Part shown: positions 12,396 through 62,781 of the stretch, in pieces
Layout: the number at the start of each line of letters is the position of its first letter
Numbering within the stretch: the first letter of the stretch is position 1
DNA from: Streptomyces sp. SM1
GTDB taxonomy: Bacteria; Actinomycetota; Actinomycetes; Streptomycetales; Streptomycetaceae
Length of the DNA: 64,000 bases
Assembly: GCF_002910825.1 (NCBI RefSeq)
Contig: NZ_NEUB01000768.1
Span: 1 to 64,000, forward strand
Reading direction: 5' to 3'
The notes under the pieces: generated by a model
Seen by the model: only the letters and a program-made list of their open reading frames with translations
Told to the model about the DNA's origin: nothing
The model's database searches: none
Program-made: the position numbers and the translations under genes

Positions 12396-12414
12396 GAGAC
12401 CACGACCTCGTACC

Positions 12415-12458
12415 TCAGACGACCCCCGCCGGCAGCCTGGCTGGCGGGGGTCGTCTGA
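12415..12458 (+). terminator. Inverted repeat, likely transcription terminator
   Basis: A 16-bp perfect stem (left arm TCAGACGACCCCCGCC, right arm at 12443-12458) with a 12-nt loop lies 20 nt after the stop at 12395. There is no strong U-tract, as is usual for streptomycete hairpin terminators. Confidence 0.8.
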
Positions 12459-12600
12459 TCTCTGACGCTGTTACGAGTGCTGCGTTTCGCAACAGGGGAG
12501 GGCATCAGCACAGCTGATCCGGGTGTCGAACCCAGGCCGAGTGCTTTGCGGGGAGACATGCCGTGGACCGGCTAACGCCGGTCCCGGGTGACGCCTCGCG

Positions 12601-19220: not shown

Positions 19221-19273
19221 CGCCAAGAGCGGTGTCGTGCAACCAACTCCCCTGGCTGGCACCGCTCTTGGCG
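19221..19273 (+). terminator. Long-loop inverted repeat
   Basis: Left arm CGCCAAGAGCGGTG (19221-19234), right arm 19260-19273, lying 19 nt after the VWA stop. Confidence 0.75.
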
Positions 19274-19378
19274 ACCCCTGACTTTCCCTCTCACTCATCC
19301 ATATCCCTGCTCGGGACACCGTGGCGCATCCACCCAGCGCGCCACCACGCCGAGCGACTCGCACCGAAGGAGGACCCG

Positions 19379-46285: not shown

Positions 46286-49200
46286 TCAGTAGCCCGCCCC
46301 GTAGTCGTCGTCGCCCTGCGGCTGATCGATCTCGATGCTCGGCGTGTAGACCGGGCGCGACGCGCCCACGCCCACGGCATGCGCAGAGCGGCGGTGCGAG
46401 CCGCGGGTGCGGGAGGCCCCCGCGTCCTGAGAGATCACGTCGCGCTTGACCGCCGAGTCATCGACGGCGATCGCAGCGCTGTCCAGGCCCTGCGCCTCGG
46501 CGGAGCTCAGCTGATCGAGCTGCCGGGACATCTCCGCCCGGGCCTTCCGGGTCCCCGAGGACGCGAACTGCTCGTTCTTCTCGCCGTCGTAGACGCTCTC
46601 GCGGTTCTTGGCCGCCTGCACGAGCGCCTCGAAGCCACCGCCGTAGGCCATCCGGTCCATGACGGTGCCCCGCAGCGACGGGTCCTCTTCGAGGTTGCGG
46701 ATGAGCCCGGTTTTCGGGTCCTCCAGCGAACTGGCCACGCGGGCCACGTAGGCCGGGTTGACCGTGACGCCGAAGCCCTCCTTGGACTCGTAGAACTCGA
46801 TGAACTTCTTCTCCCACTCCTCGGCCGTGGCCTGGACGGGCTCACCGTCGAGGAATGCCGTGCGCCACTGACCGGGGCCGACGTGTTCGATGCTTCGGCC
46901 CCTCCAGAGCTCGCGGCCGGGGCCCTGGAGCATCGCGTACTTGTGCCGGGCCTCGGCGGCGTCGTGCTTGGCCTGCAGGATCGACTGGGTCACCGGGTAG
47001 GTGACCTCCAGGACGGCCTTGAGGTCTTCGCCGCGCAGCGCGCGCACGGCGCGCTGGCTGAATGAGCCGCCCAGGCCGGTGCCGTGAGCCTTGATCGCCG
47101 TGGCGAACATCGAGGCTTCCTGGTCGGCCTGCGTGATGCCGGGCGTGCCCTGCGCATCGCCCAGGTTCCGGGCGTAGTCGGTGAGCTTCTTCTCGCTGCC
47201 CTTGGCACCGGTCTTGACGCAGACCTCGCGCACGCTCTGCAGGTGCGCCTCGCGGTCCGAGAACGTCAGTGCCGCGCCGAACTCGCCACGCTGCGCCTGG
47301 CGGTACAGCGCGCTCAGCTCCTCCGTCACGACCTGCTGGTCGAGCTTGATGTCCTCAGGCGACTCTGCGCCCGTGAGCGCTTGCAGCCGGAGCCGGTTCG
47401 CCTCGCTGCGCGAGCTCTCCAGCTCCTCAGCCAGAGCAGTGTCCTTGGAGAGCGCGACCTGGGTGTCCAGCGAGACCTGCATGGCCAGCGGGTGCGAGCC
47501 GTCGCCCTTGACCACGCCGGTGTCCAGCAGGTTGGCCGGCACCGAGAGCTTCGCCAGGGCTTCCCCCTTGGCGGCCTCGCTGTGCAGCTTCACCACGGCG
47601 ACCGCGTCGCCGTCGAAGTCGCCGTCGAAGCAGGCGTCCATCACCGGGTTGATCGCGGCACCGGTGAGCCGGTCGTCGATCGCGACCCGCATGTAACGCA
47701 CGCCGGCGTCACGGAGCACCGGGTCACGCCACACCAGCGCGTGGTCACCCTCGGCCAGCCCCAGCTGCTCGGCCTTGACCGAGCTCAGCGCAACCTGGTC
47801 GACGTCCAGCCGCGGGTCCGCAGTCCACACCATCGTCGCCGAGTCGGTCAACCGCGAGGCCATCAGCCCGGTCTTGAAGATGTTGTTCTTGCCCGTGAGC
47901 ACCCGGTTCTGCACGTCGGTCGTGATCGCCTCGAAGGCGCGCTGAGCGCGCGAGACCGACTCGCTCATGCCGCGGCGCACCTCGGAGCGCTTTTCCGCGG
48001 ACAGACCCTGGCCGTCCAGCTGCTCGGTCATGTAGCGGTAGCGGCAGGCCTCGACGAAGACGTCCTGGTAGCTGCGGGTGTAGTCGTGCGTGACGGAGGA
48101 CCCGTCCTCGAACTCCTGGCCACTGCGCAGATGTGAGGACATCACCGGCAGCTTCCACGAGCTCGCGCTCATCGTCTCGGTCTGCTCACCGGTCGGATAC
48201 GTGAGCGGGAACGGGATCTCCATGTCGCCGCCGCGGTCGCCGATGAGATCGCCGAAGGACTTGCGCATCGCCGTGGTGTTCAGTCCCGGGAGCTGGCCCT
48301 CCTTGCGCGGCTGAGTGCGCAGCAGCTCGGGCATCGGGATGAACCGGCGCTCGGGGCGCTCGTCGATGCCCTCGGCCTGGCCGACCACCCGCAGTGTGCC
48401 GTCAGCCTCCATGTCCATGCCGGTCACCAGCAGGTACTCGCGCAGGTTCGACTCGGCCCCGCTGTTGTGGCCGTAGAACTCGCGCATGATCGCCGGGCAG
48501 TCCTGAGACTGCAGCGCCCAGGCCAGCTGCGAGGAGGCTTTGCGGCCCTTGCCAGCACGCACCTGCTCGTCGTCGTAGATCTTTGTCTTCTCGTCGACGG
48601 CCATGTGGGTGACCACGAAGCGCATCTCGCCCAGGGCACTCGGCCGCAGTTCTCCGTTGGGGGAGCGCAGGTCGGAGACGTTTCCGCTCATCAGCTCGCG
48701 CGCCGAGCCCGCGTTGCGCCGGGAGATCAGGCTGAACGGGCTCATCACTACGTCCAGGCCCGGGTTGGTCCGGAACCAGTTGACCTCTTCGACGACATCC
48801 TGCTCCTGCGCGTCCTGCAGCGGCATGTCCCGGTCGACGATCAGCGAGATCACGCCCTTGTTGCCGTGCAGATCCGAGATCTTGTCGCCCACGACGAGAT
48901 CGCGCTCCTGGCCGCCGGCGCCGCGGATGCGGTGGCGCTCGGCGAACTCCTTCGACACCACGATCGGGTCATCAGCCGTCCAGCCGCCGAAGGTCATCAG
49001 CGCCGTCTTCGCCGGCGCGGTGACCTCAGAAGACTGCATGATCGTCGAGGCCGTCATCTGCTGGCGGTCGAACGGGTCGTACCGCAGCGTCTCGAGCTCG
49101 GGGAGAGCCATGAGCGGCGCACGCTGTCCGGCCACGCTCTCGTCGCCCGGCACGATCCGGCCGTCGGCGTCGACCTGGGCCTGAGTGGTCAGGTACCGCA

Positions 49201-51832
49201 CGATGCCCTGGTTGGTCGCGCCTCCGGTCATCACCGGGTCGAAGTAGCCGCTGGGCGCAGCGACGTTGTTCCGGTCCTTGCCGGTGAGTACCGTCATGTT
49301 CCGCCCGCCGGTGAGCCGCCAGGCGTCGAAGCGGTTGTCGTCAGCCGGGTCAGTTTGGTCGCGCTGGGCCCGGTACTCGGCGTAGATCGTCGAGCCGGCC
49401 TTGATTTCGTTGGAGTAGCGCACACGGCGCGCCTCGGTCTGCAGGATCGCGGCCGTCCACTCGTCCAGGTGCTCCTTGATCTCGCCGGTGGACTCGTCGA
49501 GCTGGTACGTGGTGGCGCGCTCGATGAAGTCGATCGGGTGCTTCGTGCCGTACAGCTGCGAGTAGACCGCGTTGAGCGAGGAGGGCTCGCCGGTCTCGCT
49601 GCGCCCGGCGATGAGGTCGCCGGCGATCTGGTACTGGATGCGCTCGTGCATGAGCTGCTCGTAGCCGCGCAGGCGCGTGCGTTCCTCGACCGAGGTCGGA
49701 GCCTCGCCCGGAGTCTGGGCCGTGATCGTGGCCTCGTAGCCCGGCACGACCAGGGCGTTATCCCCGCTGGCGAAGGCGGTGGTGATCTCGCCGTACTCGC
49801 CGACATCGAAGACCTGGCCGATCTCACCCGAGATCGGAGTCCCCTTGCCGTCACGGCGCTGCTTCTCGCCGCTCCAGCGGATGACGCCCTGCTCGTCGAC
49901 CAGGATCTCGGAGACCGTCGCCGCGTTGCGCTCGATGCTCTCGCGCACGGTGGCCCCGATGCGCCGCATGAATGCAGATTCGTGATCGGCGATCGGCACG
50001 GAGCGCTCGGCGTTGAAACGGACGAGCCGGTCCTTGAACCGGGTCGTCTGGAAGGTCGAGCCCATCATCTCGTCGGGGGAGATTCCGCAACGACGAAGCG
50101 CCGAGGCGAGGTTGTCGAGGTTCGACCACTGCCCGGTGGGGCTGGTCATGTACCGCGCCACCCGGTCCGGGTTGAAGCGCTGGTCGACCCACTCGCCGTC
50201 GACGTCGTGGGGCTCCGCCTCCCAGGTCCCGATGAGTTCGAAGGGGACGTCCTCGGCGTGCTGCCGGACCTTCTCGACGGCGGTGCCGCCGTAGACGAGG
50301 TTGCCCATCTCGGGCACCTCCTCGGCCTGCAACTCGCCGATCTCCTCCAGCCTTTCCTGGTACATCTCTTCGGTCGCCCCCGGGCGCAGCAGATCGCTGT
50401 GCGCGCCGGTGAGGACGTCCCAGTAGGAGCGCTGGATCGCAGCGACCTCAGAGTCAGCCGAGTACTCCGGCGGCTCGATCGCATCCAGCTGTCCGCCGGT
50501 TCGCTCCAGCTCGGCCTCAGCACGAGCGATCAGGTCTTCGACGCCAAGAGCTGCCTGCAGGTTCTGCCGCGCGCTCTCGACGGCGGCCTTCGCGTAGGCC
50601 TCAGCGGGCTGGGCGTCGATGAAGAAGGTCGGCAGGGAGCGGTTCTTCGCGTCCCGGCGCAGCATCACCTTCGACCCGGGCCGGGGACCGGACTCGCCCG
50701 GGGCCACATAGTTGCCGACCACGAACATCGACTCCCGGTCGACGTGGTAGCTGTCGGGCACATCCACCAGCGTGCGGCCACGGCCGCGCTCCTGGTGCGT
50801 CGTGCCCATCTCGCCGGCGGCGTGCCCCGGAAGATCCGTGCGCTCGATGCGGTGGCCCTGGGCGAAGCGCAGCAGCTGAACGGCTTCCGTCGGCGAGGGG
50901 GAGTAGACCGCCATGCCGCCGGGGACCCGGTAGTTCGTCGAGTAGCGCAGCACGGTGCCGTTGTCGTAAATCCGGGCTCCGGCGTACTCCTCCTGGCGCG
51001 TGTCGGTGAGGCGGATCTCCATGCCGGTCTGGGCGATCTTCGCCTTGATCTGACCGGGCTCGCGGTCGCGCATCACCTCGTAGGACACGCCCTGGGCCTT
51101 CAGCTCTTCGAGCAGTGCTGCCGAGCGTGCCACGGCGCGCCGGGACATGAAGCGGTTGCGGTCGACACGGTTCGTCTGGGGATCCCGGCCGCCGTCGATG
51201 ACCCACTCGCGGACCTGGTCGTACTCCTGCTGGCTCATCTTGTCCATCAGCGCGGTGAGCCCAGCGGCGTCATCGTTCGTCATCGCTCGGCCGGCCTCGA
51301 AAGGTTTGCCCTCGTCGTCGATGCGCCAGAGCACCATGTTCCCGCGACGGGGATCGGCCAGGGTCTCCACCTCGCCGCCGGCCACGCGTGCGATCGTCTC
51401 GTCCGGCAGGTACACCAGCGCAGTCCCGGCGCGCTTCACGGTCGCGCGTTCGGACCAGTCGGGGTCGTAGGGGCTGATCGGCAGCCGGGCCGACTTCGGG
51501 TCGGCCTGGGCACCGACGCCGGTGGCACGGATGAACTCCCGCTGCGACTGCTGGTAGCTCTCGTTCTGCGGGGAATGGTCACCGAACTGCGGCTCGTAGT
51601 CGGACACCTTCTCCGCGAATGCCTGGTCGATGGCGGTGAGGCAGTCCGTGGCGCCCAGCCGCGGGTCGGCCAGCGCGGTGCCCCGCTGTCCGAGGATCTC
51701 GTCGACCCGGGCGCGGATCGCCTTGGCCTGGGAGATCGGGATGACCTGTCCGGTCTGATCCCGGGCCTGCTCGACTGCCTTGTAGTAGACGTACTCATAG
51801 AAGTACCTGCGCAGTCCGTGTGCCTTCTTCAT
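46286..51832 (-). CDS. Single-chain RNA polymerase: fused beta / beta-prime homologue
   Basis: 1848 residues from ATG 51832; GGAGG lies 10 nt upstream, with a TTG 6 nt earlier as the alternative. The first ~950 residues are unrecognised. Then come beta-subunit signatures: ADDPIVVSKEF (as beta GYNyEDAIvxS), GDKISDLHGNKGVISLIVDR (~980-1000, both catalytic-region lysines kept) and LDVVMSPFSLISRRNAG (as beta VDIVLNPLGVPSRMNIG). About 400 residues later come beta-prime signatures: a GKNNIFKTGLMASRL block, WRDPVLRDAGVRYMRV (as RAPTLHRLG), the catalytic DGDFDGDAVAVVKL (~1398-1411; all three Asp of NADFDGD kept), and a bridge-helix-like KTGAKGSEKKL (~1540). It is much more compact than bacterial beta plus beta-prime. 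Relatives in kind are the single-chain two-barrel enzymes of some phages (YonO, crAss-like). Confidence 0.9.
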   Translation of the reverse strand: MKKAHGLRRYFYEYVYYKAVEQARDQTGQVIPISQAKAIRARVDEILGQRGTALADPRLGATDCLTAIDQAFAEKVSDYEPQFGDHSPQNESYQQSQREFIRATGVGAQADPKSARLPISPYDPDWSERATVKRAGTALVYLPDETIARVAGGEVETLADPRRGNMVLWRIDDEGKPFEAGRAMTNDDAAGLTALMDKMSQQEYDQVREWVIDGGRDPQTNRVDRNRFMSRRAVARSAALLEELKAQGVSYEVMRDREPGQIKAKIAQTGMEIRLTDTRQEEYAGARIYDNGTVLRYSTNYRVPGGMAVYSPSPTEAVQLLRFAQGHRIERTDLPGHAAGEMGTTHQERGRGRTLVDVPDSYHVDRESMFVVGNYVAPGESGPRPGSKVMLRRDAKNRSLPTFFIDAQPAEAYAKAAVESARQNLQAALGVEDLIARAEAELERTGGQLDAIEPPEYSADSEVAAIQRSYWDVLTGAHSDLLRPGATEEMYQERLEEIGELQAEEVPEMGNLVYGGTAVEKVRQHAEDVPFELIGTWEAEPHDVDGEWVDQRFNPDRVARYMTSPTGQWSNLDNLASALRRCGISPDEMMGSTFQTTRFKDRLVRFNAERSVPIADHESAFMRRIGATVRESIERNAATVSEILVDEQGVIRWSGEKQRRDGKGTPISGEIGQVFDVGEYGEITTAFASGDNALVVPGYEATITAQTPGEAPTSVEERTRLRGYEQLMHERIQYQIAGDLIAGRSETGEPSSLNAVYSQLYGTKHPIDFIERATTYQLDESTGEIKEHLDEWTAAILQTEARRVRYSNEIKAGSTIYAEYRAQRDQTDPADDNRFDAWRLTGGRNMTVLTGKDRNNVAAPSGYFDPVMTGGATNQGIVRYLTTQAQVDADGRIVPGDESVAGQRAPLMALPELETLRYDPFDRQQMTASTIMQSSEVTAPAKTALMTFGGWTADDPIVVSKEFAERHRIRGAGGQERDLVVGDKISDLHGNKGVISLIVDRDMPLQDAQEQDVVEEVNWFRTNPGLDVVMSPFSLISRRNAGSARELMSGNVSDLRSPNGELRPSALGEMRFVVTHMAVDEKTKIYDDEQVRAGKGRKASSQLAWALQSQDCPAIMREFYGHNSGAESNLREYLLVTGMDMEADGTLRVVGQAEGIDERPERRFIPMPELLRTQPRKEGQLPGLNTTAMRKSFGDLIGDRGGDMEIPFPLTYPTGEQTETMSASSWKLPVMSSHLRSGQEFEDGSSVTHDYTRSYQDVFVEACRYRYMTEQLDGQGLSAEKRSEVRRGMSESVSRAQRAFEAITTDVQNRVLTGKNNIFKTGLMASRLTDSATMVWTADPRLDVDQVALSSVKAEQLGLAEGDHALVWRDPVLRDAGVRYMRVAIDDRLTGAAINPVMDACFDGDFDGDAVAVVKLHSEAAKGEALAKLSVPANLLDTGVVKGDGSHPLAMQVSLDTQVALSKDTALAEELESSRSEANRLRLQALTGAESPEDIKLDQQVVTEELSALYRQAQRGEFGAALTFSDREAHLQSVREVCVKTGAKGSEKKLTDYARNLGDAQGTPGITQADQEASMFATAIKAHGTGLGGSFSQRAVRALRGEDLKAVLEVTYPVTQSILQAKHDAAEARHKYAMLQGPGRELWRGRSIEHVGPGQWRTAFLDGEPVQATAEEWEKKFIEFYESKEGFGVTVNPAYVARVASSLEDPKTGLIRNLEEDPSLRGTVMDRMAYGGGFEALVQAAKNRESVYDGEKNEQFASSGTRKARAEMSRQLDQLSSAEAQGLDSAAIAVDDSAVKRDVISQDAGASRTRGSHRRSAHAVGVGASRPVYTPSIEIDQPQGDDDYGAGY

Positions 51833-51886
51833 AGTCAATCAGCCTCCTGCGGACGCTCGGGGTTACATAAGCATGTATAGAGCCTA

Positions 51887-52008: not shown

Positions 52009-55000
52009 CTACTTCGAGTTCATCTCGATGGCCATGGCCCGGTCGAACCGGCCGTCGGCCAGCACCTCCCAGCTCGGCAGTGAGGCCAGGTACTGGTAGA
52101 AGGCCGAGTGGACCATCACCGTCGCCAGGGACTTCAGGTCCTCCTCGGTGACGTCCCCCTCCGCGAACACCCGCGAGTCCTCGTTGTTCACATGGCCGTT
52201 GATCCGGCGGGCCGCATGGGCGTACGCGTCCGAGCGGATCTGGCTGATGTACGTCTGAGACCCGTCGGCGCTGCGCAGCTCGCCGTCGCCGCCGACCGAG
52301 AAGTGCTCGCGATCCTGTTCCAACTCGGTCTGCGCCGACTTGTAGGCCTCACCGATCTCGATGTCCAGGCTCTTGACCTTCGCCGAGCCGTCGGGGTTGA
52401 CCAGCATCTCCTTGCTGATCGTCCCCTCGGCGTAGAGCAGACGCTGCCGCTCGACGCTGACCGCCTGACTCTCGGCGACCGCAACCCCGACCTCGACGTT
52501 CTCGATGAACTGGTCCTCGTCGAACATGCTCATCCCCTCGTACGCGTCGGGGTCGACGACCACCGGAGCGTTGGGGTCCTGGCCCTCGTCGACCGTGGTC
52601 ATCGTCGTGATGACCTCCATGACCTCGTCGGCGTAGACATCGGGATCCAGGCGCTCGATGTCGACCTCCTGGTAGCTGTAGATCTCCTTGTACTGCGCCT
52701 TCGCGTCTGCGGCCTTGACTGCCTGCCGCATGCGCTTCTCCAGCATCTTCACGAAGTCCGGCTGGTTCATTCGCACGTCGAAGTCCATGGCACTGGACAG
52801 CGTCGGGATCGTCTGCAGCGAGTACGTGTGCCCCGGGTGCTTGATCGTGTTGCCCAGCAGCCGGAACGACATCGGCAGGATCGTCTGGTTGCGGTTCCAG
52901 ATCGGCGCGTCGCCGGCCCGGAAGACGATCGAGTTGCGCGGCGAGAGGAATGCCATGTCGTTGTAGCTGATCAGCGGCTCTTCCTTGGTGTTCATCGTGT
53001 AGGAGACCCGGCCCTCGGTCTTGCCGCCGATGACCTTGTCGAGATCCTGGCTGATCTGCTTGCTGTCACGGTACGACCGGTGCGTCTTGCCGCTCATCTT
53101 CTCCAGCGTCTCGATCATCGAATCGTCCGTGGACTTCAAGAAGACGATGTTCGAGGTGTTGCCCTGTACGATCTTGTCGACGCTCTCGCCGTAGACGTCG
53201 CGCAGCTGCTGCAGGGTCTGCAGGATGAGCGTGAACTGCTGCTCCTGGCCCAGGCCGATGGAGAGCATCGTCTCGAAGCCGTCGATGCCTTTGCCCTCGG
53301 ACTGCAGGTTGCCGAGCTCGTCGAGCATGAACCGCGTGCGGTAGAGCGGCTTCTGGTTCGACTTCGTCATGTACGCCTGGTCGGCGCTCACGTCGAACAG
53401 CTGCTTGACCAGGATCAGGATCAGCTTCGCGTACTTCATCAGGTGGGGTGGAGTCACCAGGAACAGCGCCTTGGGGGACTCCGAGTAGCGCGACAGCGTC
53501 TGCGTGATCGCCCGTGCCTGGTACGAGACCTTCTCCGGGTTGCCGACGCCGGAGAAGTCGAGTCGCGTGTCCGGGTAGAGCGTGTCCCCGGGCTGGAAGG
53601 ACAGGATCTTCCCGTCCCGGGTGCCGCCCTCACGCACCGGCTTCAGCTCACGCATCACGCCGTTCTTCACGATCTTATTGCCCGTCACCGGCTCGACCAC
53701 GTAGTGCCGGCCGTTGAGCGAGACCTGGTAGTTCTTCGTGAAGCTGAAGTAGAAGGTGCGCACCAGCATCTTTGTCTGCGGGTTGACCAGCTCCAGCTTG
53801 AGCCAGGCCTCGTCGTCAGGGAACTTGCCCTTGAAGTTGTACCGGGCCCAACCCTCGCGGCCGACGATCTCCTCGTGCTCGAAGTCCTCACCCAGGTTCT
53901 CGGTGAACATCGGGTCCGCGTAGGCCGACCACACGGCTTGCTGACCGACGAGGTGGTCGCGCTTGACGTAGTTCGGCGCGAAGCGCACGCCGAGGCGACG
54001 CGGGAAGCTCAGGCCGGCCAGGTCGGTGTTCTGCGAGGGCTTGCCCGAGGTCAGCGTCGAGATCGTGGGGTCGGTGAAGAACGACATGGCGGTGATCGCG
54101 ATTCCGTACACCGAGGCCAGCATCTTCTCCGCCCCGGCCATCGAGCGCAGCGCGTTGTGGGCGTTGCCCACCAGCGTGCGCATGTTGTTGCGGGGCAGCT
54201 CCTCGCTCGCGTTGAAGTACAGGCTGAGCATGTCCTGATCGGCCTTGCCCTCCCACATGAAGGCCTGGGCCGCAGCCTTCTCCTGCTCCTCGGCCAGGGC
54301 GTCCTCGTTGTTCTCGAACTCGCCGGCCTTGACCCGCTTCTCCAGCTCGGCCTCAGGGTTCTTGATCTTCTTCGAGCTCATCTGCACGAAGAGCTGGTAG
54401 CAGTTGTAGAGCGTGGCCTTGCCCCAGAGGTCATCGAGCTTCTGCTCCAGCAGCGCCGGGTCCATATTCAGCACGGCTGCGGCGCTGCGCAGCTCCCGCT
54501 CCTCCTCCAGATAGAAGTCGATGAGTCCGTAGGCCGCGCGCTTGAAGGCGTTGTTGGCGGCGTTGGGCCAGACCGGGTCCTCGCCGCCGTCGAGCGGAAA
54601 GAAGATCCCGGCGATGTTCTCCACGTACAGCGCGCACTTGGTGAAGTTGCCCTCACGCGCCGCGTCGGCCGCCAGTCCCAGGGGGTTGTAGATGTCGGTC
54701 TTCATGGAGTTGATCAGGTTGAACTGCACCGGCTCGAACCCGCGTGTGACCAGGGGCACGTAGTTCTTCACCAACAACTCGCCCTTGGGGTCGTTGATGA
54801 CCATGTTCGAGGGCTTCTTCTCCCGCGACCACATGTCGATGATCGGCTCGATGTACGTCTGGCCCTTACCGGCTCGGGTGATGGCCAGCACCATGGTGTT
54901 CACCGGCGCGGTATCGACCACGTACGCCCCGGCCGGGCGCTGGACCTCGTACGCCGGGAACTCCCAGTCCTTCTTGATCAGGTCAGCGACGGTCTTGTAC

Positions 55001-56055
55001 GTGTCCGATCCGAAGCCGAGCTTGTCCCGGTTCTTGCCGTCAGGGTTGTACGGGATCCGTGCCGTGTCGTACTTCTGCCGCAGCGTCTTGTCATCGGGGA
55101 GCCCGGATGCCTCGAACAGCTCGTCGCCGAAGTCTTCGTCGATGATCGGCAGGGTCTGCGTCAGCGGATCGCCCTCGTCGTCGTCCATGACCTCGCCGGC
55201 GTAGTAGACGAGGTTCCCCTCCTCATCGATGACGTCCTTCTTGGCGCGCTGGGCGACCTCGACGGTGCCCAGGCCCTTCTTCTTGAGCATCATGTGGCTG
55301 AGCATCGAGCTGACCTGCACGCTTGAGTGAGCACCGGCGTCGGGGAACCAGTCGTAGTTCTGCTGGATCTCTTCCGGCAGGGAGATGTGCTGGTCGTTCT
55401 GGTACTGGTTGATGTCGCTCGTGGTGTTCATCAGGTTCGCCGCGGCGACCTTCCGCGAGAACCACGTACCGATGATGAGGGCGACCATCAGACCCGAGCC
55501 GAGCGTGATGAAGAGCTTGAACCCCGAGACGTCGGCCAGCTGCTCGCCGACCGTCGTCTCGCTCTTCTTGGGCTCAGCCGGCTTCTCGGCGCTGGGCTTG
55601 CCGTCCTTCGCCGCGGTGTACCAGCTGGGGACCGGAACAGCCTCAGCGCTGTGGTAGCACTTCGCCTTCACGTCCGGGTTGCCGTCCTTGGCCAGGGGCC
55701 GGTAGCACTTCACGACCGAGCCGCCCGCACCCGTCGTGGTGTCCTGGACGTAGTACACGCTCGGCTTGCCGGTGCCGTTGCCGGGCACGCCCGAACCCAC
55801 GGACGCGCCCACCGAGAGCACCGCCGTGGCGATGAGGGAGTAGAAGACCCAGGCGACGATCATCACCAGCACGCCGGTAATCACCGCGACGACGATGCCC
55901 GGTCTGGTCGACCTCAGAGTCAGGAACGTGCTGCGGTCCAGCTGCTGGTTGTCGTGGACGTCTCGGTTCGTCAGCGTCTCGCCGGGCGTCCGCGCCGAGA
56001 TCTTGTCCCAGCTGCTCGCCTTCGGCCGTGTTGCCTTCCGCCTGTTCGTGGCCAT
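52009..56055 (-). CDS. Giant VirD4/TraG-type conjugation coupling ATPase
   Basis: 1348 residues from ATG 56055 (AAGGGATCACG in front). Two transmembrane helices: ~52-76 (IVVAVITGVLVMIVAWVFYS), and ~173-195 after an external loop. The type IV coupling protein core follows: Walker A AITRAGKGQTY (~389-399), the MVINDPKGELL motif (~418-428), and Walker B RFMLDELGNL with the FTLILQTLQQLRDVYG block (~905-955). VirD4 proteins pump substrate DNA or protein into a type IV secretion channel. This one is about twice the usual length because of a ~480-residue insertion between the two Walker motifs and a ~300-residue helical C-terminal extension. No VirB4 or relaxase is seen in the window. Confidence 0.92.
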   Translation of the reverse strand: MATNRRKATRPKASSWDKISARTPGETLTNRDVHDNQQLDRSTFLTLRSTRPGIVVAVITGVLVMIVAWVFYSLIATAVLSVGASVGSGVPGNGTGKPSVYYVQDTTTGAGGSVVKCYRPLAKDGNPDVKAKCYHSAEAVPVPSWYTAAKDGKPSAEKPAEPKKSETTVGEQLADVSGFKLFITLGSGLMVALIIGTWFSRKVAAANLMNTTSDINQYQNDQHISLPEEIQQNYDWFPDAGAHSSVQVSSMLSHMMLKKKGLGTVEVAQRAKKDVIDEEGNLVYYAGEVMDDDEGDPLTQTLPIIDEDFGDELFEASGLPDDKTLRQKYDTARIPYNPDGKNRDKLGFGSDTYKTVADLIKKDWEFPAYEVQRPAGAYVVDTAPVNTMVLAITRAGKGQTYIEPIIDMWSREKKPSNMVINDPKGELLVKNYVPLVTRGFEPVQFNLINSMKTDIYNPLGLAADAAREGNFTKCALYVENIAGIFFPLDGGEDPVWPNAANNAFKRAAYGLIDFYLEEERELRSAAAVLNMDPALLEQKLDDLWGKATLYNCYQLFVQMSSKKIKNPEAELEKRVKAGEFENNEDALAEEQEKAAAQAFMWEGKADQDMLSLYFNASEELPRNNMRTLVGNAHNALRSMAGAEKMLASVYGIAITAMSFFTDPTISTLTSGKPSQNTDLAGLSFPRRLGVRFAPNYVKRDHLVGQQAVWSAYADPMFTENLGEDFEHEEIVGREGWARYNFKGKFPDDEAWLKLELVNPQTKMLVRTFYFSFTKNYQVSLNGRHYVVEPVTGNKIVKNGVMRELKPVREGGTRDGKILSFQPGDTLYPDTRLDFSGVGNPEKVSYQARAITQTLSRYSESPKALFLVTPPHLMKYAKLILILVKQLFDVSADQAYMTKSNQKPLYRTRFMLDELGNLQSEGKGIDGFETMLSIGLGQEQQFTLILQTLQQLRDVYGESVDKIVQGNTSNIVFLKSTDDSMIETLEKMSGKTHRSYRDSKQISQDLDKVIGGKTEGRVSYTMNTKEEPLISYNDMAFLSPRNSIVFRAGDAPIWNRNQTILPMSFRLLGNTIKHPGHTYSLQTIPTLSSAMDFDVRMNQPDFVKMLEKRMRQAVKAADAKAQYKEIYSYQEVDIERLDPDVYADEVMEVITTMTTVDEGQDPNAPVVVDPDAYEGMSMFDEDQFIENVEVGVAVAESQAVSVERQRLLYAEGTISKEMLVNPDGSAKVKSLDIEIGEAYKSAQTELEQDREHFSVGGDGELRSADGSQTYISQIRSDAYAHAARRINGHVNNEDSRVFAEGDVTEEDLKSLATVMVHSAFYQYLASLPSWEVLADGRFDRAMAIEMNSK

Positions 56056-56190: not shown

Positions 56191-58257
56191 TCAACGGGTC
56201 AAGACCACCCCGACGATGAAGCCGGCCGCGCCCATCAGGAGCGAGAGCGTGACGATCATGACGACGAGGATCTTGTTCGAGCGGCTTTGCATCTCGGAGG
56301 CCCGCGCCAGCTCGTTGGCGTAGGACTCCTTGTCGGCCTGCATCTCCGCCAGGCGCACCTCATACCGCCTGGCCACTGAATCCTCGACCGTCGACAGCTG
56401 CTGGAGCAGGTCGGTGACCCGTGCCACCTGGGAGTTGGTCTTCTCCTTCTCCAGGTCGAGGTTGTGCTGCCACTCGGCGTCCCGAGCCGTCATCTGCGTG
56501 ATGGCGTCCTTGCGGTTGCGTTCGAGCTCGTCCTCCATCCGGCGGATCCGGTCGGCGTGCTCAGAGCGCACCGACTCCAGGAGGTCCTGCTGCTCCCGGC
56601 GCAGGGCGCCGATCTCGTCCGTGGTCCGCAGGTGCTCGGCCAGCGCCTCGGACTGGGCGATGTCGGCCTTGCGGTTGTCGTCGACGATCCGCTGGATCTC
56701 GGACTTCCACTGGTTCAGGCGCTCTTCCTCGGCCGCCAGGTATTTTGACTGCTGCTCGGCCAGCACCTCGAAGATCCGCGTCTGCCCGGTCTGCATCTTC
56801 AGCGTCGCGTCCGAACGCCGGACCCGCAGGATCTCCTGCTGGTTGTGCGCGTGGGTGTCCTCGATGTCCCGCTCGATCCCGGCGATGGAGTCGGTCTGCT
56901 CGCGCTCCATCTTCGAGCGGTTGCGCTCCTTGTACTGCAGTTCCGCCGAGAGCGCCGCCTGCTGGGCCACCTTGGAGGCCTGAGACTCGTAGTCCTTGGC
57001 GATCTCCGCCCGGCGGGCCCGGATCTTCTCATCCTTCTCCGTCTGCCGCTGCTGGTGCTCGGCCTCGGCGGCGTCCTTCAGCAGCTTGTACCGGGAGCCC
57101 GCGCGGTCGGTGGCCACATCGCGGATGACCTGCTCGGTGTGCGCCGACATGAGGTTGACGTAGAGCGCACGCAGCTCATCCTCATGCGCGGAACGGAGCT
57201 GCATCAGGTCTGCGTTGGCCTGCCGGTTGAGCTGGGCGACCTGGTCCCCGAGCCACTCCGTCGCGCCCTCGGGCACAGCGATCTGCACGACCGGCGCGCC
57301 GATGGCGAAGGTTGCGTTGAACTCATCGAGCCGGACGTCCAGGTCCAGCTCCTCGGAGAGGAACCGACGGGCGATGACGTCGCGCACCTGGGCCTGATCG
57401 GCCAGCAGCACAGTGTCGCCGGCCTCCTGGTAGTCGCCCTCGACGCCGTAGCCGGCGTCGGTCTCGTCGAAACCCTCGTAGCCGGCCACCTCGTCGCCGT
57501 CGTAGTCCGGCTCCGACTCGACCGAGACGGCGCCCGCGTCGTCGATACCTGCGGCGTCCTCGCCGAGCATGGATGCGTCCGCCCCTTCATCCGCGTCGAC
57601 GACGTCGCTGAAGAGCGGCTCGTCGTCCAGGCCCTCGGCAGCCCCCTCGTCACCGGGGATTCCGTCGAAGATCGCATCCCCCTCGTCCTCCCCGAGGACC
57701 GCGGGGGCAGTGGCTCCAGCCTCGGCGACCAGGCCGCTGTGCTCCTCCCATGCCTTCTTGCCCACGGCTTCTTCGAGGCTCGTGGTACCTGCAGCGACAA
57801 AGCGTGCCTGCGCGAAGGTCGCATCGTTCACGAGATCGACGAGCAGATCGCCGCTGGGCTTCTGCCACACGACGGCCCAGGCGTAGGTGGCACCGGTGAG
57901 CAGCGAGTACTCCTCCATGCGCGCGAGAGTCTCGTCGGTGGGGATGATGCCGAAGACCTCCTCTTCGAGCATCTCCGCCGTGGCCACCGTGCGGATCTGG
58001 TCGGAGCTGATGAGCTCGATGATCGAGCCCTTCGCCTCGTCCCGGCCGTGCCGCTTGCTCAAGCCACCGATCGAGTCGGCTGCGAGCACGAGCATCACCC
58101 AGGCCGTACTGCTGGGAAAGACGAACTGCGTGTTCGACCGCAGCAGCTCTACCGCCGCCGGGATTGCCGTTTCTCTCACCACGGAGGCCAGAAGCTCGTC
58201 GGGCTTCTTCTTCCGCTCCTTCCTGCGGCTTCCCGTTGCCGTACCCAGAATGCCCAT
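56191..58257 (-). CDS. Tail-anchored coiled-coil membrane protein
   Basis: 688 residues. A globular N-terminal domain (~1-185), then a strongly acidic disordered segment (~190-290, rich in Asp, Glu, Gly), a second small domain (~290-360), a long coiled coil (~370-655; many Glu/Arg/Gln heptads such as RREQQDLLESVRSEHADRIR), and a single C-terminal transmembrane helix (ILVVMIVTLSLLMGAAGFIV, ~664-683). The protein would sit on the cytoplasmic face, tethered by its tail. It lies directly before the coupling-protein gene in transcription order, so it may recruit DNA or ATPase partners to the membrane. No known family. Confidence 0.8.
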   Translation of the reverse strand: MGILGTATGSRRKERKKKPDELLASVVRETAIPAAVELLRSNTQFVFPSSTAWVMLVLAADSIGGLSKRHGRDEAKGSIIELISSDQIRTVATAEMLEEEVFGIIPTDETLARMEEYSLLTGATYAWAVVWQKPSGDLLVDLVNDATFAQARFVAAGTTSLEEAVGKKAWEEHSGLVAEAGATAPAVLGEDEGDAIFDGIPGDEGAAEGLDDEPLFSDVVDADEGADASMLGEDAAGIDDAGAVSVESEPDYDGDEVAGYEGFDETDAGYGVEGDYQEAGDTVLLADQAQVRDVIARRFLSEELDLDVRLDEFNATFAIGAPVVQIAVPEGATEWLGDQVAQLNRQANADLMQLRSAHEDELRALYVNLMSAHTEQVIRDVATDRAGSRYKLLKDAAEAEHQQRQTEKDEKIRARRAEIAKDYESQASKVAQQAALSAELQYKERNRSKMEREQTDSIAGIERDIEDTHAHNQQEILRVRRSDATLKMQTGQTRIFEVLAEQQSKYLAAEEERLNQWKSEIQRIVDDNRKADIAQSEALAEHLRTTDEIGALRREQQDLLESVRSEHADRIRRMEDELERNRKDAITQMTARDAEWQHNLDLEKEKTNSQVARVTDLLQQLSTVEDSVARRYEVRLAEMQADKESYANELARASEMQSRSNKILVVMIVTLSLLMGAAGFIVGVVLTR

Positions 58258-58400: not shown

Positions 58401-61310
58401 TCATCGCACCGCGCTGACCTCGACGTAGGCGTCGGAACTCAGCAGGTTCTTGTCGTCGCTGACCAGGTCGCCGACGACGTCGATGCGGATACGCCGTTCC
58501 GAGGGGTGCTCGTTGAGGAAGGTCGCCACCGCGGTGGTGACCTCGTCGGTCAGCTTCGCCACAGCCGCACGCGCACCGCCGGCATCAGAGGCGGTATCGC
58601 CCTTGTCCTCGATGAGGTACTGCAGGACCCTCGCATCGACGTCGATGCGCACGTTGTGCTTGACGAACACCTCCTGCACCATCTGGCGCAGCTTCTTCCG
58701 CACGATCTTTTGCTGCGTCAGCAGCGACAGCGGCTGGAAAGGCACGATCGCGTCGATACGGCCCAGCAGCTCGGGCGGAAATCGGTTGTCGCCCGTCGTC
58801 GAGGAGATCGAGCGGCGGATGAGCTTCTCGTACTCCAGCAGCTGCTTGCCCGACCCGGTGTCGTCCGCCGCGTACTGCGCGATGTCCTTGTAGATCTCCG
58901 AGCCGGCGTTCGTCGTCAGCACGATGTAGGTGTTGAGGAAGCTCACCTCGCGGTTGTTGGCGTCGTTGAGCCGGCCGTCGTCGAGCACCTGCAGCAGCAC
59001 GCGTGTCACCATCGCCGAGGCCTTCTCGACCTCGTCGAAAAGCAGCACAGCGTGGGAGAGGGCCCACACGCGCTTGGTGAGCTCAGAGCGGAACGCCGCG
59101 AACGACGAGTCCTCGGCGTACTCCGTCATGTCGAACCGGATCAGGTGCCGCTGGTCGTCACCGAACAGCAGTCGTGCCAGCTGCTTCGTGAGCTCCGTGT
59201 TGTGCGTGACCACGAACTGACCAGCCTGGTAGAGGTGCTCCTCGTCGTTGACGTAGATGCACGACGAGCTCTGCTGCTCCGGCAGCTTCTCGATCGACGC
59301 GATGCCGACCATGTCGAACTTCTTCACGCGCTTACGACCCGAGGTCTCGATGGCCGCGCGCCGTGCGATCTCCTGCTTGCGGGGCAGGGAGAAGAACCGG
59401 GCCTTATCCTCGTTGCCGACCTTCACGTGCACGCCGTACTCGACCAGTTCGCGCCCGTCCTCCTTCGTGCGTGTCCACGATTTGATCGTGTTCGAGACGC
59501 CGAGCGAGAACAGCACCTCCCTAAGGTCCTCCGTGAGCCCCTTGGAGAACGTCGAGTACGAGACGTTGAAGCGGTCGTTCGAGGCACCGATCGATCCGTC
59601 GGTGTCGAAAAGGCCCCGCACCAGCGCCCACCGCTGCTGTACCGATCCGTGTTTGTACCTCTCCGGGATACGGCGCTCCGCCGAGCGCGCACCGATCAGA
59701 TCGGGAACCGAGGCAAGCACGTCCTTCGTCTGGTACAGCGAATCGCGGCGGTCCTCCACCGGGCCAACACCGACAGGGAAAACCCAGCTGTAGTTGCGTC
59801 CGTACGACTTCGGTGCCGACCCCAGCCATTCGCCCACCATCCACACGGTGTGGTCGGCGTCGTCCCCGTCAGACGAGAGCGTCAGCTGCCTCTCAGTGAG
59901 GCACCCGTTACCGATGAGGACGCCCAAGACGTACGGGTCGACGTCGAAGTCCTGCTCCGGCCAGTGCACCGGTCCGTTCGCCGGGATGAAGAACTTCAGA
60001 TCTTCCCGAGAGTCGCCGGGGTAGGTCCGCACGACGCCACGCTCGACCATTTCCTGCGTGCTCAGGACCATCGGCGCGACGTCCTTGCCCGCATGCTTCT
60101 TCGACCGCTGCTTGGCTGTGTAGACCGTCCACAAGTGCGGTCCTCCAACGTCGAGAGTCCGGCCGTCCCAGAGCGTGACCCGGTAGACGTCCTGCATGCC
60201 CTGCGGGAAGTGTCCGAGCACCTCGACCGGGTGACCTTGGCGACCGAACACTCTGTCGCCCGGGACCAGGTCGCCGTGCAGCTTCCAGGTGGTCTCGCCG
60301 TCGCTCGAGTAGACAGGAACCTGCGTCGAGTCGACGCAGAATTTCCCCGTTCCCGTCGATCCCGTGAACAGCAGGCTCGCCATCGGCTTCCCCTTGTCGT
60401 TGAGGTCCGCCACCGACAACTGCAGACGACGCGCCACCGCGCCGGTCGCCCAGTCCTGGCTGAACACCTTGGCGTCCAGCTGCTTCTTGATCTTCGCGCC
60501 GTCGACCCGGAATGCGACGTTCACGTTCAGGGACTCCATGAGCACGTCCGAGAGCAGGTCCCGGTCCATCGGTCGGTGCGTCAGGCGATGCCAGCCGACC
60601 ATGGAGTCGAGCACGAGGATCGACTTGCGCGGCTGGGCGCTGGCCGGCATGTAGCGCTGGGTGTACTCGTAGATCTGCTGGAAGACGTGGTCGTCGTAGA
60701 ACTCGTCGGCCACCCCGTACCGTTCGGCCATGCCCTGCAGGATCTTGATGGTCGTCGCCTGGTCCGGCGGGTTGAGGTTGATGCGCTGCAGGCGCTCGAC
60801 GAGCGGCTGGTTCGGCGAGATGTGCTTGTGGAACTCCTCGTAGGTCGTCGCCGCGATGATCCTGATGCCTCGGGTTCCCGAAGCCGCGAGGACCGGCTTG
60901 ATGGCCTCGACAGCGGCGTCGGAGAGCTGGATGATCTGGTGGAACTCGTCGATGAAGAGCACCACTTCGTGCTTCTCGTCCTTGACGAAGTCCTCGGCCT
61001 CGTCGAAGAAGCCCTTGAGCTTCGAGGCCATGTTCTCGGCGTTGCCCGCCTCGGAGATCATGCGCGCCGGGTCCACCTCCAGGTAGAGGCGGCCCGGATC
61101 CACGAGCATCGTGGCCTGGACCAATGCGGTCTTTCCCGTTCCGGCCTCGGCCAATAGAAGCGCATTGCACAGCTCAGGGCGGCTCATCGAGGCCAGCAGC
61201 TGCATCGTCTCGTGCTCACGGCCGACGATGTCGCGCTCGGCCTTCTTCAGTGGCTCCGAGAGCTTGGACAGGAGTGGGTAGCGCTCGTTGAGCTGTGCCT
61301 CGTGGAACAT
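58401..61310 (-). CDS. Clp-type two-domain AAA+ ATPase interrupted by an intein
   Basis: 969-residue precursor, start placed at ATG 61310. The longer frame to 61469 reads through the promoter region and a hairpin. First AAA module: AEAGTGKTA (~58-66) and LFIDEFHQ (~113-120). Second module: GSTGTGK at ~317-323, interrupted by an intein (residues ~324-704) directly after the P-loop Lys, then resuming TELTKQLARLLFG; Walker B LLFDEVEKAS (~755-764); Arg-finger region ELLGRIDAIVPF. Splicing would give a 588-residue ClpA/B-like unfoldase with a restored GTGKTE P-loop. It has no ClpP-binding loop. It is the second Clp-like protein on the element. Confidence 0.92.
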   Translation of the reverse strand: MFHEAQLNERYPLLSKLSEPLKKAERDIVGREHETMQLLASMSRPELCNALLLAEAGTGKTALVQATMLVDPGRLYLEVDPARMISEAGNAENMASKLKGFFDEAEDFVKDEKHEVVLFIDEFHQIIQLSDAAVEAIKPVLAASGTRGIRIIAATTYEEFHKHISPNQPLVERLQRINLNPPDQATTIKILQGMAERYGVADEFYDDHVFQQIYEYTQRYMPASAQPRKSILVLDSMVGWHRLTHRPMDRDLLSDVLMESLNVNVAFRVDGAKIKKQLDAKVFSQDWATGAVARRLQLSVADLNDKGKPMASLLFTGSTGTGKFCVDSTQVPVYSSDGETTWKLHGDLVPGDRVFGRQGHPVEVLGHFPQGMQDVYRVTLWDGRTLDVGGPHLWTVYTAKQRSKKHAGKDVAPMVLSTQEMVERGVVRTYPGDSREDLKFFIPANGPVHWPEQDFDVDPYVLGVLIGNGCLTERQLTLSSDGDDADHTVWMVGEWLGSAPKSYGRNYSWVFPVGVGPVEDRRDSLYQTKDVLASVPDLIGARSAERRIPERYKHGSVQQRWALVRGLFDTDGSIGASNDRFNVSYSTFSKGLTEDLREVLFSLGVSNTIKSWTRTKEDGRELVEYGVHVKVGNEDKARFFSLPRKQEIARRAAIETSGRKRVKKFDMVGIASIEKLPEQQSSSCIYVNDEEHLYQAGQFVVTHNTELTKQLARLLFGDDQRHLIRFDMTEYAEDSSFAAFRSELTKRVWALSHAVLLFDEVEKASAMVTRVLLQVLDDGRLNDANNREVSFLNTYIVLTTNAGSEIYKDIAQYAADDTGSGKQLLEYEKLIRRSISSTTGDNRFPPELLGRIDAIVPFQPLSLLTQQKIVRKKLRQMVQEVFVKHNVRIDVDARVLQYLIEDKGDTASDAGGARAAVAKLTDEVTTAVATFLNEHPSERRIRIDVVGDLVSDDKNLLSSDAYVEVSAVR
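59199..60341 (-). other. Intein with LAGLIDADG endonuclease, class 3 features
   Basis: 381 codons between Lys of the P-loop and Thr of the C-extein. It begins FCVDSTQVPVYSSDG and ends QFVVTHN. If Phe is residue 1 it has no N-terminal nucleophile. Instead it has Trp in block B (GGPHLW), Cys in block F (SSSCIYV) and Thr before the terminal His-Asn, which is the Trp-Cys-Thr set known for class 3 inteins that splice through a block F Cys. Two LAGLIDADG-type motifs (VLGVLIGNG near 59920; LVRGLFDTDGSIG near 59610) indicate a homing endonuclease. Removal restores the Walker A motif, so splicing is probably required for ATPase activity. Confidence 0.82.
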
Positions 61311-61440: not shown

Positions 61441-61628
61441 GTTCCATGCACTGGTCGCGGGTCGCTCACCCGCCGTATTCGGACTCGCGGAACCCTGCCG
61501 GACTGGGGTGAGGGCTGGAGTGGAAGCGCGGCGCCGAGGGGGCAGGCCAGGTGGAGGTGCCCCAGGGCCGGGCGGCCCGGGGCGCGGCACTGGTATTTCG
61601 ACCAGCCCGTTTCCCCGGACCGCCCTCC

Positions 61629-61663
61629 GAACCGGACGTGCCTGTTGGCCAGGCATCCGGCTC
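61629..61663 (-). ncRNA. Group II intron domain V
   Basis: On the - strand, a 35-nt hairpin beginning GAGCCGGATGCCTGGCC and ending GGCACGTCCGGTTC matches the catalytic domain V pattern of bacterial group II introns. The following GGAGGGCGGTCC...GGGCCGCC stem is domain VI. Confidence 0.8.
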
Positions 61664-61680
61664 TCCACGAGTCCCAGGGG

Positions 61681-62781
61681 CTATCCGGCGACGGCTGGCT
61701 GCGCGCTGGTGCTCCATGGCGACGGGATTCGGGCTCCCCGGAAGCGGTAGCGAGTGATCGTTACCGTGGCCGGGTTGAACAGCCGGACCCCGTCCTGCTC
61801 CGGCAGCCAGGCACCAACCTGGTTGCCCTGGTAGCGGCGTTTGAGCTTCTTCCAAGGCACGCGTCGGTGCTTTCGACGCAGCCATCCCCAGACCCTGTGC
61901 CACGTGTAGTAGCCCAGGTAGTTCAGGCTCGTCTTGGCTGACGAGTGCCGGAAGTAGTTCGCCCATCCGCGCAGCAGCCAGTTCAGCTGCTTGAGCAGTT
62001 CATCGAGCGGTTGACTGATGCTCTGCCTGCAAATCGCCTTCACCTTCCGGCAGACCGTCTGCATGGACGGCTTACTGGGGTAGGTGTAGACGTATTGCTT
62101 GTGCGACTTCTTGCTATTGCGCCGCTGGATGCGGAACCCCAAGAAGTCGAACCCCTCATCGATATGGGCGATGGTCGTCTTCTCCTGCGACAGGCGCAGG
62201 CCGACCTGCTTCAGCACCTCTGAGACCTCGCTCTTCAGCTCTTCGGCGTGGAGCCGGGAGCCGTGGATCAAGAGCACGAAGTCGTCCGCGTAGCGGACCA
62301 GTCGGCAGGTCGCCCCGCCGTGTCGTCGGTGCCGCATCCGTTCCGATCCTGTGCGGCCAGTCTTCTGCCAGAGCCGGGCGAAGTGCTCGTCCAGTACCGA
62401 CAGAGCGACGTTGGCCAGGAGCGGCGACAGAATCCCCCCTTGGGGTGTACCGGCGAAGGTGTCCCTGTTGACCAGGTCCGTCGAAAGGATGCCTGACTTG
62501 AGGAACGCCTTGACCAGGCGCAACACCCGCCTGTCCCCGATTCGTTCGCGCACAAGGCCCATAAGGGCCGTGTGGTCGATTTCATCGAAGCACGCCTTGA
62601 TATCACCCTCCAAGACCCAGTCATAACCCCGGGACGTGTAGTAGTGAATTTCGGCGATCGCGTCATGCGCTCTTCGGTTGGGACGAAAGCCATACGAGTA
62701 CGGCTCGAAGTCCGCTTCGAAGATCGGCTCCAGTACGATCTTAAGAGCCGCCTGCACCACCCGGTCCGTGAAAGTAGGCAT
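61681..62781 (-). pseudogene. Group II intron reverse transcriptase/maturase, N-terminally truncated
   Basis: The 366-residue readable part begins at PTFTDRVVQAALKIVLEPIF, which in full-length proteins lies roughly 90-110 residues from the start, so the first RT motifs are lost. It retains the RT core including GTPQGGILSPLLANV and the catalytic YADD (LVRYADDFVLLIHG), followed by the maturase domain (WLLRGWANYFRHSSAKTSLN). No HNH endonuclease domain. The apparent ATG at 62781 replaces the normal Ile before Pro-Thr and is only a junction artefact. Confidence 0.85.

Follow-up and report, generated by a model that had tools for sequence, protein, structure and literature searches.

A predicted class 3 intein with a LAGLIDADG endonuclease domain at the second Walker A motif of a Clp-like ATPase on an actinobacterial conjugative element

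A stretch of 64,000 nucleotides from Streptomyces sp. SM1 (contig NZ_NEUB01000768.1, positions 1 to 64,000; hereafter the window) carries on its minus strand, at 61310-58401, the gene for a 969-residue precursor of a ClpA/B-like ATPase with two AAA domains. An insert of 381 residues (59199-60341, minus strand; residues 377-757 of the open frame 61469-58401) lies within the second Walker A motif of this protein. We are highly confident, on the strength of sequence comparisons and a predicted structure, that it is a class 3 LAGLIDADG intein at the Lys|Thr bond of that motif, hosted by a Clp-like ATPase with two AAA domains that belongs to a conjugative element of MobL type from actinobacteria, with predicted splicing and predicted movement from allele to allele. 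A first-pass annotation of this DNA had proposed a class 3 intein in the P-loop of a Clp-like ATPase, and that proposal is now supported by empty sites in relatives, the class 3 signature, the block A register and structural matches. The features on which the argument draws are as follows.

58401-61310, minus strand: host gene, precursor of a double-AAA ClpA/ClpB-like ATPase (open reading frame, Pfam, NCBIfam, frames of relatives)
60342-61310, minus strand: N-extein, ending ...GSTGTGK (open reading frame; comparison of empty and filled alleles)
61131-61151, minus strand: first Walker A motif AEAGTGK, followed by T, unsplit in the window (sequence; holds a class 3 intein in four relatives)
60342-60362, minus strand: N-terminal half of the second Walker A motif, GSTGTGK (sequence)
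59199-60341, minus strand: predicted class 3 intein, Phe1 to Asn381, 381 residues (junctions, signature, model)
60336-60341, minus strand: Phe1 and Cys2 (13 distinct copies, with Leu for Phe1 in L026)
60129-60137, minus strand: block B His69 (B:10), Leu70 and Trp71 (B:12) (alignments)
59337-59981, minus strand: homing endonuclease domain of LAGLIDADG type, roughly residues 121-335 (Pfam, model, structure matches)
59904-59933, minus strand: first LAGLIDADG motif, YVLGVLIGNG, with Asn145 at 59907-59909 (sequence, alignments)
59592-59615, minus strand: second LAGLIDADG motif, GLFDTDGS, with Asp248 at 59598-59600 (sequence, alignments)
59259-59261, minus strand: Cys361 (F:4), predicted first nucleophile (alignments)
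59199-59207, minus strand: Thr379 (G:5), His380 and Asn381 (alignments)
59196-59198, minus strand: Thr+1, predicted second nucleophile; in the mature ATPase, the Thr of the Walker A motif (sequence)
58401-59198, minus strand: C-extein, comprising the rest of AAA-2, Walker B LLFDE and the stop codon (open reading frame, Pfam)

The first codon of the open frame is a GTG at 61469. The true start is probably the ATG at 61308-61310, because the frames of two relatives (L012 and L016) open just 16 codons ahead of that ATG, and the DNA 5' of it can still be aligned to the window. Pfam recognizes AAA (2.2e-8) and AAA_2 (1.5e-27), one on each side of the insert, and both Walker B motifs (LFIDE and LLFDE) are present in the extein. 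NCBIfam ranks ClpA first (8.1e-66), with ClpB and ClpV next nearest and all of them far under their cut-offs. The ClpA equivalog TIGR02639 scored 222.7 bits against a curated cut-off of 993 with the intein left in the scored protein, and we therefore file the host simply as Clp-like. ATPases that partner ClpP are marked by an [LIV]G[FL] tripeptide loop. A motif search for [LIVY]G[FL] found none in the window's extein, and for this reason the mature protein resembles an unfoldase that acts independently of ClpP.

The ends of the insert can be placed exactly because the junctions read in frame as K|F and N|T (...GSTGTGK | FCVDSTQVPV...VVTHN | TELTKQ...). All eight intein-free relatives examined read GVGK-T at this place, with nothing between and no Phe. 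These include four Streptomyces genomes (L027-L030), whose exteins are 93.4-94.6% identical in amino acids to that of the window, together with L035 from another family, L017 (Rhodococcus), L018 (Gordonia) and L019 (Staphylococcus). Twelve further distinct copies of the insert occupy the same codon boundary, which, with the clean joining of the eight empty relatives, makes a chance insertion untenable. The 15 intein-bearing rows that were fetched reduce to 13 distinct copies, since L021 equals L009 and L023 equals L013 in both extein and intein DNA. Position 1 is Phe in 12 of the 13 and Leu in one (L026), and Cys2 is present in every one. The first-pass annotation had thus located the insertion correctly at Lys|Thr of the second Walker A motif, as the junction and all eight empty relatives attest.

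A wider view of position 1 comes from divergent relatives. Pattern matching in viral contigs gave 600 matches, of which 554 proved to be relatives of the intein. From these, 80 loci were taken and 70 counted, ten being dropped because they had no terminal HN, had a length outside 290-420 or repeated the first 60 residues of another; 57 of the 70 entered an alignment of 58 divergent relatives (A3). Position 1 among the 70 is Ala in 41, Glu in seven, Ser in five, Phe in five, Met in four and something else in eight, and only one has Cys at the place of Cys2. In a separate panel of 13 phage and plasmid relatives, the slot of Phe1 is mostly Ala, with Gly, Leu, Met and once Cys also found. When residues are counted from the Lys to the conserved positions of block A, residue 1 of the relatives falls opposite Phe1. 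The empty GVGK-T alleles and the Leu start of L026 both argue that Phe1 belongs to the intein, and it follows that Cys2 would not be a class 1 nucleophile. By sequence and model, then, the two splice sites fall at Lys|Phe and Asn|Thr, which leaves Cys2 inside the intein. The suggestion that an intein beginning with Phe would lack an N-terminal nucleophile accordingly stands, with the boundary set by the eight empty alleles.

If the intein were instead of class 1, an N-S acyl shift would take place at Cys2, Phe would stay in the extein and the mature loop would read GTGKF-T. Cys2 is evidently conserved for some reason, being invariant in the 13 copies and nearly absent from the viral relatives, and a few class 3-like relatives do begin with Ser (5/70) or Cys (1/70). 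However, no residue stands between Lys and Thr in the empty alleles, L026 has Leu where Phe would have to be retained, and both the block A register and the structural alignments begin at residue 1. Moreover, Gly66 stands where class 1 inteins have the Thr of block B, and the class 3 Trp and Cys are both present. We give very little credence to class 1 splicing from Cys2, and reject it on the empty alleles, the register and the structure.

Class 3 inteins are defined by a Trp at B:12, a Cys at F:4 and a Thr at G:5 and need no nucleophile at position 1, and all but one of the members known to the authors of that account have Ser or Thr at +1 (PMC5222942, in the portion available). Every one of the 15 rows has this set, as had been anticipated from the letters: His69-Leu/Gln70-Trp71, with Trp71 (B:12) two residues after His69 (B:10), then Cys361 (F:4), Thr379 (G:5)-His380-Asn381 and Thr+1. 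A profile built from seven copies places Trp71, Cys361 and the terminal Thr-His(-Asn) in register with the crystallized class 3 inteins 6RIX, 6RIY and 6BS8. His69, Trp71, Cys361, Thr379, His380 and Asn381 are likewise invariant in all 58 members of A3, which is not independent evidence because that alignment was gathered with a mostly class 3 query. An AlphaFold2 model from 64 sequences has a predicted local distance difference test score (pLDDT) of 92.7 and a predicted template modelling score (pTM) of 0.92. The best structural match of its splicing domain is the class 3 intein 6BS8 (Z 20.4, 1.6 Å over 123 residues), in an alignment that begins at residue 1 of both model and chain, followed by 6RIX, a class 3 DnaB intein (Z 20.0), and the class 1 intein gp41-1 (Z 18.4). 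Over the whole length, the best matches are PI-SceI entries (Z 25.1-25.9). Pfam LAGLIDADG_3 is found within the insert (4.2e-11), both motifs can be seen in the sequence, and the endonuclease domain matches PI-SceI and I-DmoI in structure.

Signature, profile and structural matches together point to a class 3 route with two branched intermediates, whose steps we infer from class 3 biochemistry. Cys361, helped by His69 and packed by Trp71, would attack the Lys-Phe1 peptide bond, and the N-extein would then be carried on the block F thioester. Thr+1 would take over the N-extein by transesterification, Asn381 would cyclize with His380 to free the intein, and an acyl shift would yield GTGK-TELTK, an intact Walker A motif. 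Until splicing had occurred, the second ATP site should be unable to form; the first-pass annotation had seen in this a possible post-translational switch. At an empty site, recombination would be expected to transfer the intein between alleles, most likely driven by endonuclease homing.

A dead insertion would have lost splicing, and with it the second AAA site, leaving the protein to rely on its first AAA module. There is a precedent in Arth_1007, an intein first filed as class 3 that is a proven pseudogene (PMC3196547, in the part available). The signature residues are nevertheless kept in all 15 rows, Walker B motifs are retained in all seven rows checked, the extein has a ratio of nonsynonymous to synonymous substitution rates (dN/dS) of 0.07-0.20 in seven pairs, and no copy examined has internal stops. 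We consider it highly improbable that the insertion is dead.

Evidence for movement comes from alleles in which intein and host gene have different histories. Between L026 and the window, the extein is 93.3% identical in DNA and the intein 77.2%, and synonymous differences number 74/423 in the extein and 140/277 in the intein (p=2.8e-20). The last 120 or so bases of the L026 intein and the sequence beyond are close to the window, and about 150 bases ahead of the intein are less so; given this uneven similarity, we read the allele as a mosaic into which a foreign intein was copied with some of its upstream flank. The reverse pattern is seen in L013. In the extein tree it falls with the four empty Streptomyces alleles (97/97). 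Its intein differs from that of the window at fewer synonymous positions (33/274) than its extein does (98/422; p=2.2e-4), and in the bases flanking the insert (12 ahead of it, 15 behind) L013 agrees with the window's filled allele and not with the empty ones. Junctions of this kind would be left by a short conversion tract. In L016, L012 and L024, too, divergence is lower in the intein than in the extein (p 0.013, 0.0082 and 0.0055, with no correction for how many pairs were compared). Synonymous divergence rejects strict co-inheritance of the intein with its host in L026 and L013, agrees with it in L014 and does not reject it in L022 or L015. Four things indicate lateral movement: the 13 distinct copies, the empty alleles (four, at 93-95% identity), the foreign intein lineage found in a close host, and a copy that is younger than the gene it sits in. 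By its sequence this is a genuine and still mobile intein, of a known kind but in an unusual host protein.

Several observations weigh against parts of this interpretation. The evidence for splicing consists of sequence and a predicted model. The top PDB match of the seven-copy profile is an engineered gp41-1 (E 0.00013) and not a natural class 3 intein, wild-type class 1 gp41-1 (E 0.002) lies amid the class 3 entries, and the class 3 matches themselves have E of 0.0012-0.005, with the block F and G stretches weak when taken alone. The dN/dS of the splicing part rises to 0.80 for residues 1-120 between the window and L016 and to 0.64 for residues 336-381 between the window and L026, each time on small counts of 5 vs 2 changes. 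For movement, the window and the Arthrobacter copy L014 have equal proportions of synonymous differences (pS) inside and outside the intein (0.479 and 0.476, p=1), and comparisons with L022 and L015 give no significant difference between intein and extein (p=0.27 and 0.12). The synonymous-divergence test covers 11 pairs that are non-independent and uncorrected for number, and an empty allele that displaced the intein in the sister clade would explain L013 almost as well as a gain and could leave similar junctions. Finally, the first LAGLIDADG motif (LGVLIGNG in all 15 rows) has Asn145 in place of Asp in every one of the 13 distinct copies. An acidic catalytic residue in each LAGLIDADG motif is a criterion for homing endonucleases, and here we find Asn145 in the first motif and Asp248 in the second; we therefore claim no canonical active enzyme. 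Asp-to-Asn mutants are expected to be crippled for double-strand cleavage, and on that ground the homing step may be weak or driven by nicking. Nothing direct on Asp-to-Asn LAGLIDADG enzymes was found in the literature matches, including the available part of PMC3943268.

The aspartate is retained in most relatives. The position holds 56 Asp, one Asn and one Lys in A3, and 63 Asp and two Asn (L070 and L097) among the 70 viral relatives, with five unparsed; Asn also occurs in L046 and in the look-alike viral loci L052-L054, which were left out of the 70. On these sequences, Asn in the first motif is uncommon, though not unique. It might be that the endonuclease is inactive and that the pattern reflects ordinary recombination and vertical descent of the conjugative element. 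Such an account would fit the presence of Asn145 in both intein lineages, as well as the equal divergence of intein and extein between the window and L014. It is opposed by the discordant divergence of L026 and L013, by full-length frames in all copies examined, and by a domain dN/dS near 0.2 in three distant pairs at synonymous divergences (dS) of 0.77-1.1. Over seven pairs, the dN/dS of the domain is 0.19-0.34 (for example, 0.23 between the window and L014), and by this measure it is under purifying selection. We regard an inactive enzyme as doubtful, though the proposal carries appreciable weight. We favour an enzyme that still works but has an altered site, perhaps as a nickase, because a dead domain should have decayed over such distances. 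The intein would thus present a long-lived homing endonuclease domain that is under purifying selection and yet minus one catalytic aspartate. When mobility was first suggested from the LAGLIDADG domain, this substitution went unremarked; the movement itself is backed by sequence comparison.

Returning to Cys2, it could be argued that the intein has been domesticated as a redox switch, with Cys2, beside the scissile bond, forming a disulfide with Cys361 under oxidation and holding the ATPase inactive. The invariance of Cys2 in the 13 copies and its occurrence in one of 70 viral relatives would suit such a role, and the class 3 P-loop intein of Mycobacterium smegmatis DnaB has a Cys48-Cys118 trap (PMC6195587, as far as the accessible text goes). 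However, four of the 11 Streptomyces genomes that carry the gene have the empty allele, and so sporadic and shuffled a presence suits a parasite better than a domesticated switch. We therefore think a redox switch improbable, and retain the mobile class 3 intein as the preferred reading.

Four of the 13 copies (L014, L016, L024 and L025) have the first Walker A motif split as well, by an additional intein placed exactly between its Lys and Thr, 375 residues long in L014 and 462 in the other three. Each of the four shows HxW, Thr-His-Asn, Thr+1 and the Cys of block F. When the two inteins within a protein are compared, 139 of 363 aligned residues agree in L014 and 120 of 338 in L016, and we therefore consider them separate members rather than fresh copies of each other. 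Genes with two inteins are known (PMC10643990 and PMC6195587, in the excerpts available). Among the titles and abstract openings of the literature matches listed, none describes class 3 inteins at both P-loops of one ATPase. With both P-loops occupied, it appears that the preference of class 3 inteins for Lys|Thr can strike twice in one protein. A far-reaching scenario can be assembled from these parts, in which the family spreads with a natural Asp-to-Asn LAGLIDADG site (as a strand-specific nickase or by an unusual cleavage chemistry), class 3 inteins in both Walker A motifs lock the two AAA rings of a conjugation motor separately, each ring being freed by the exit of its own intein, and Cys2 adds a redox brake. 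We rate the whole of it as unlikely. Filled, empty and doubly filled alleles at more than 90% identity form a natural series that should be useful for studying homing, co-conversion and the cost of a blocked ATPase.

The gene neighbourhood points to conjugation. Two features lie downstream of the ATPase gene.

56191-58257, minus strand: open reading frame of 688 residues without a family match, between the ATPase and the coupling protein (Pfam)
52009-56055, minus strand: VirD4/TraG-type coupling protein of type IV secretion (Pfam, NCBIfam)

A MobL relaxase is encoded on the same contig past the window (11250-13493 of fetched stretch L146; Pfam E 3.6e-114). The order relaxase, ATPase, hypothetical protein, coupling protein and large open reading frame, with other frames interspersed, is common to plasmids of Streptomyces NBC_01454, Rhodococcus fascians (pGS01) and Gordonia (pGKT2), and a hypothetical frame also separates ATPase and coupling protein in L016, L017 and L018. 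On a Staphylococcus capitis plasmid, relaxase and ATPase are one open reading frame apart. From this common order we conclude that the ATPase belongs to a shared mobilization module, in which it might unfold or pump the transfer substrate.

Other elements of the region deserve mention in their own right. Downstream of the coupling protein, an open reading frame of 1850 residues (46286-51838, minus strand) has signatures of both RNA polymerase beta and beta-prime in one polypeptide, with Rpb2 domain 6 GDKISDLHGNKGV and Rpb1 domain 2 DFDGD, which we take to be polymerase motifs; its matches in PDB and PHROG are weak. Possibly the frame encodes a two-barrel polymerase in fused form, carried by a conjugative element. 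Large frames stand at the matching place in L016, L017 and L018, by position and with sequences uncompared. A group II intron with a maturase lies just upstream of the ATPase gene (61575-62781, minus strand), its domain V scoring 33.5 bits against an Rfam cut-off of 40; Rfam gave no match at gathering score in the whole window. Past the window is a second group II intron with its own maturase (L146 6186-8054, 42.5 bits), and between the two introns lies a large serine recombinase with a C-terminal excisionase-like helix-turn-helix region (L146 3353-5521, equal to contig 63353-65521, minus strand, partly in the window). A second AAA/AAA_2 protein related to Clp ATPases is encoded on the plus strand at 19232-21286.

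The view that class 3 inteins are rare, which the first-pass annotation had adopted, does not hold up. Relatives of the intein were found in 466 of 50,697 phage records (E<=1e-5) and in 81 of 391 genomes of the same order (E<=1e-15, the window's own included), some of the latter matches forming a lower group in frames of about 1100 residues. Thirteen fetched same-order loci not of the window's kind all have PhoH-type flanks, and Pfam identifies PhoH in each of the four tested. Among the 13 phage and plasmid relatives of the panel, the block F Cys is present throughout and the block B Trp in 11 (not in L041 and L043); the alignment A2 leaves out L039, whose junction is less clear, and L044 and L048, whose ends are misplaced. 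The insert follows the Lys of GK in most of this panel and in many viral loci. A single-intein query of viral contigs found no relative, a search of the 100 nearest genomes at E<=1e-40 matched only in the window's own genome, and the search for further copies in that genome gave one weak endonuclease-like match (5.6e-4). The Clp-like host gene is scarcer than relatives of the intein. At E<=1e-60 it was found in 11 of 392 Streptomyces genomes, seven with the intein and four without, and it was present in two of 394 genomes of the class, namely the window's own and one with an empty allele.

Among the titles and abstract openings of the literature matches listed, from which subscription journals are mostly absent, none reports an intein in a Clp/HSP100 ATPase, although PMC11701221, seen in part, mentions both intein and clpb. 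A known system to compare is the ClpP intein of the chloroplast of Chlamydomonas eugametos, according to the limited source text at hand, which shares residence in a protein of the Clp system but has a protease subunit as its host, whereas the host here is an ATPase. Class 3 inteins of DnaB, Msm DnaBi1 and MchDnaB1, agree with the window's intein in the register of the signature and in structure (Z 20.4 and 20.0); they differ in length (139 and 145 residues), in having DnaB as host and in sequence (25-28% identity by structural alignment). Msm DnaBi1 also occupies a P-loop (PMC6195587; PMC7664689) and differs in having no endonuclease (PMC6195587), as described in the accessible portions of these papers. 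The TerL1-a inteins of mycobacteriophages resemble the window's intein in that a TerL class 3 relative with an endonuclease exists (L040), but their host is a phage terminase and this relative is 28% identical to the window's intein. The Bvi IcmO intein lies in what we take to be a component of type IV secretion, and is unlike the present one in being a mini-intein with Cys+1 in another host protein. It is a proven class 3 intein on a plasmid (PMC5222942, within the excerpt available). PhoH inteins of Streptomyces genomes are of class 3 type, come from the same genus and have an endonuclease domain, but the loci fetched are 34-36% identical to the window's intein, their host is PhoH and the eight examined have Asp in the first motif.

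A Miltoncostaea plasmid (L038 2968-3981) likewise has a class 3 type intein, at GAGK|T of an ATPase of the T2SS/T4P/T4SS family. The TraD intein of the IncC plasmid pKAZ5 (L037 2962-4068) shows the class 3 signature and splits GSGK|T in a conjugation ATPase; it is 30% identical to the window's intein, and its host is a coupling protein and not a Clp-like ATPase. Four further enterobacterial plasmid records gave matches too, with no annotated gene beneath them. Set beside these systems, the intein described here would extend the known hosts of its class to a Clp-like ATPase of conjugation.

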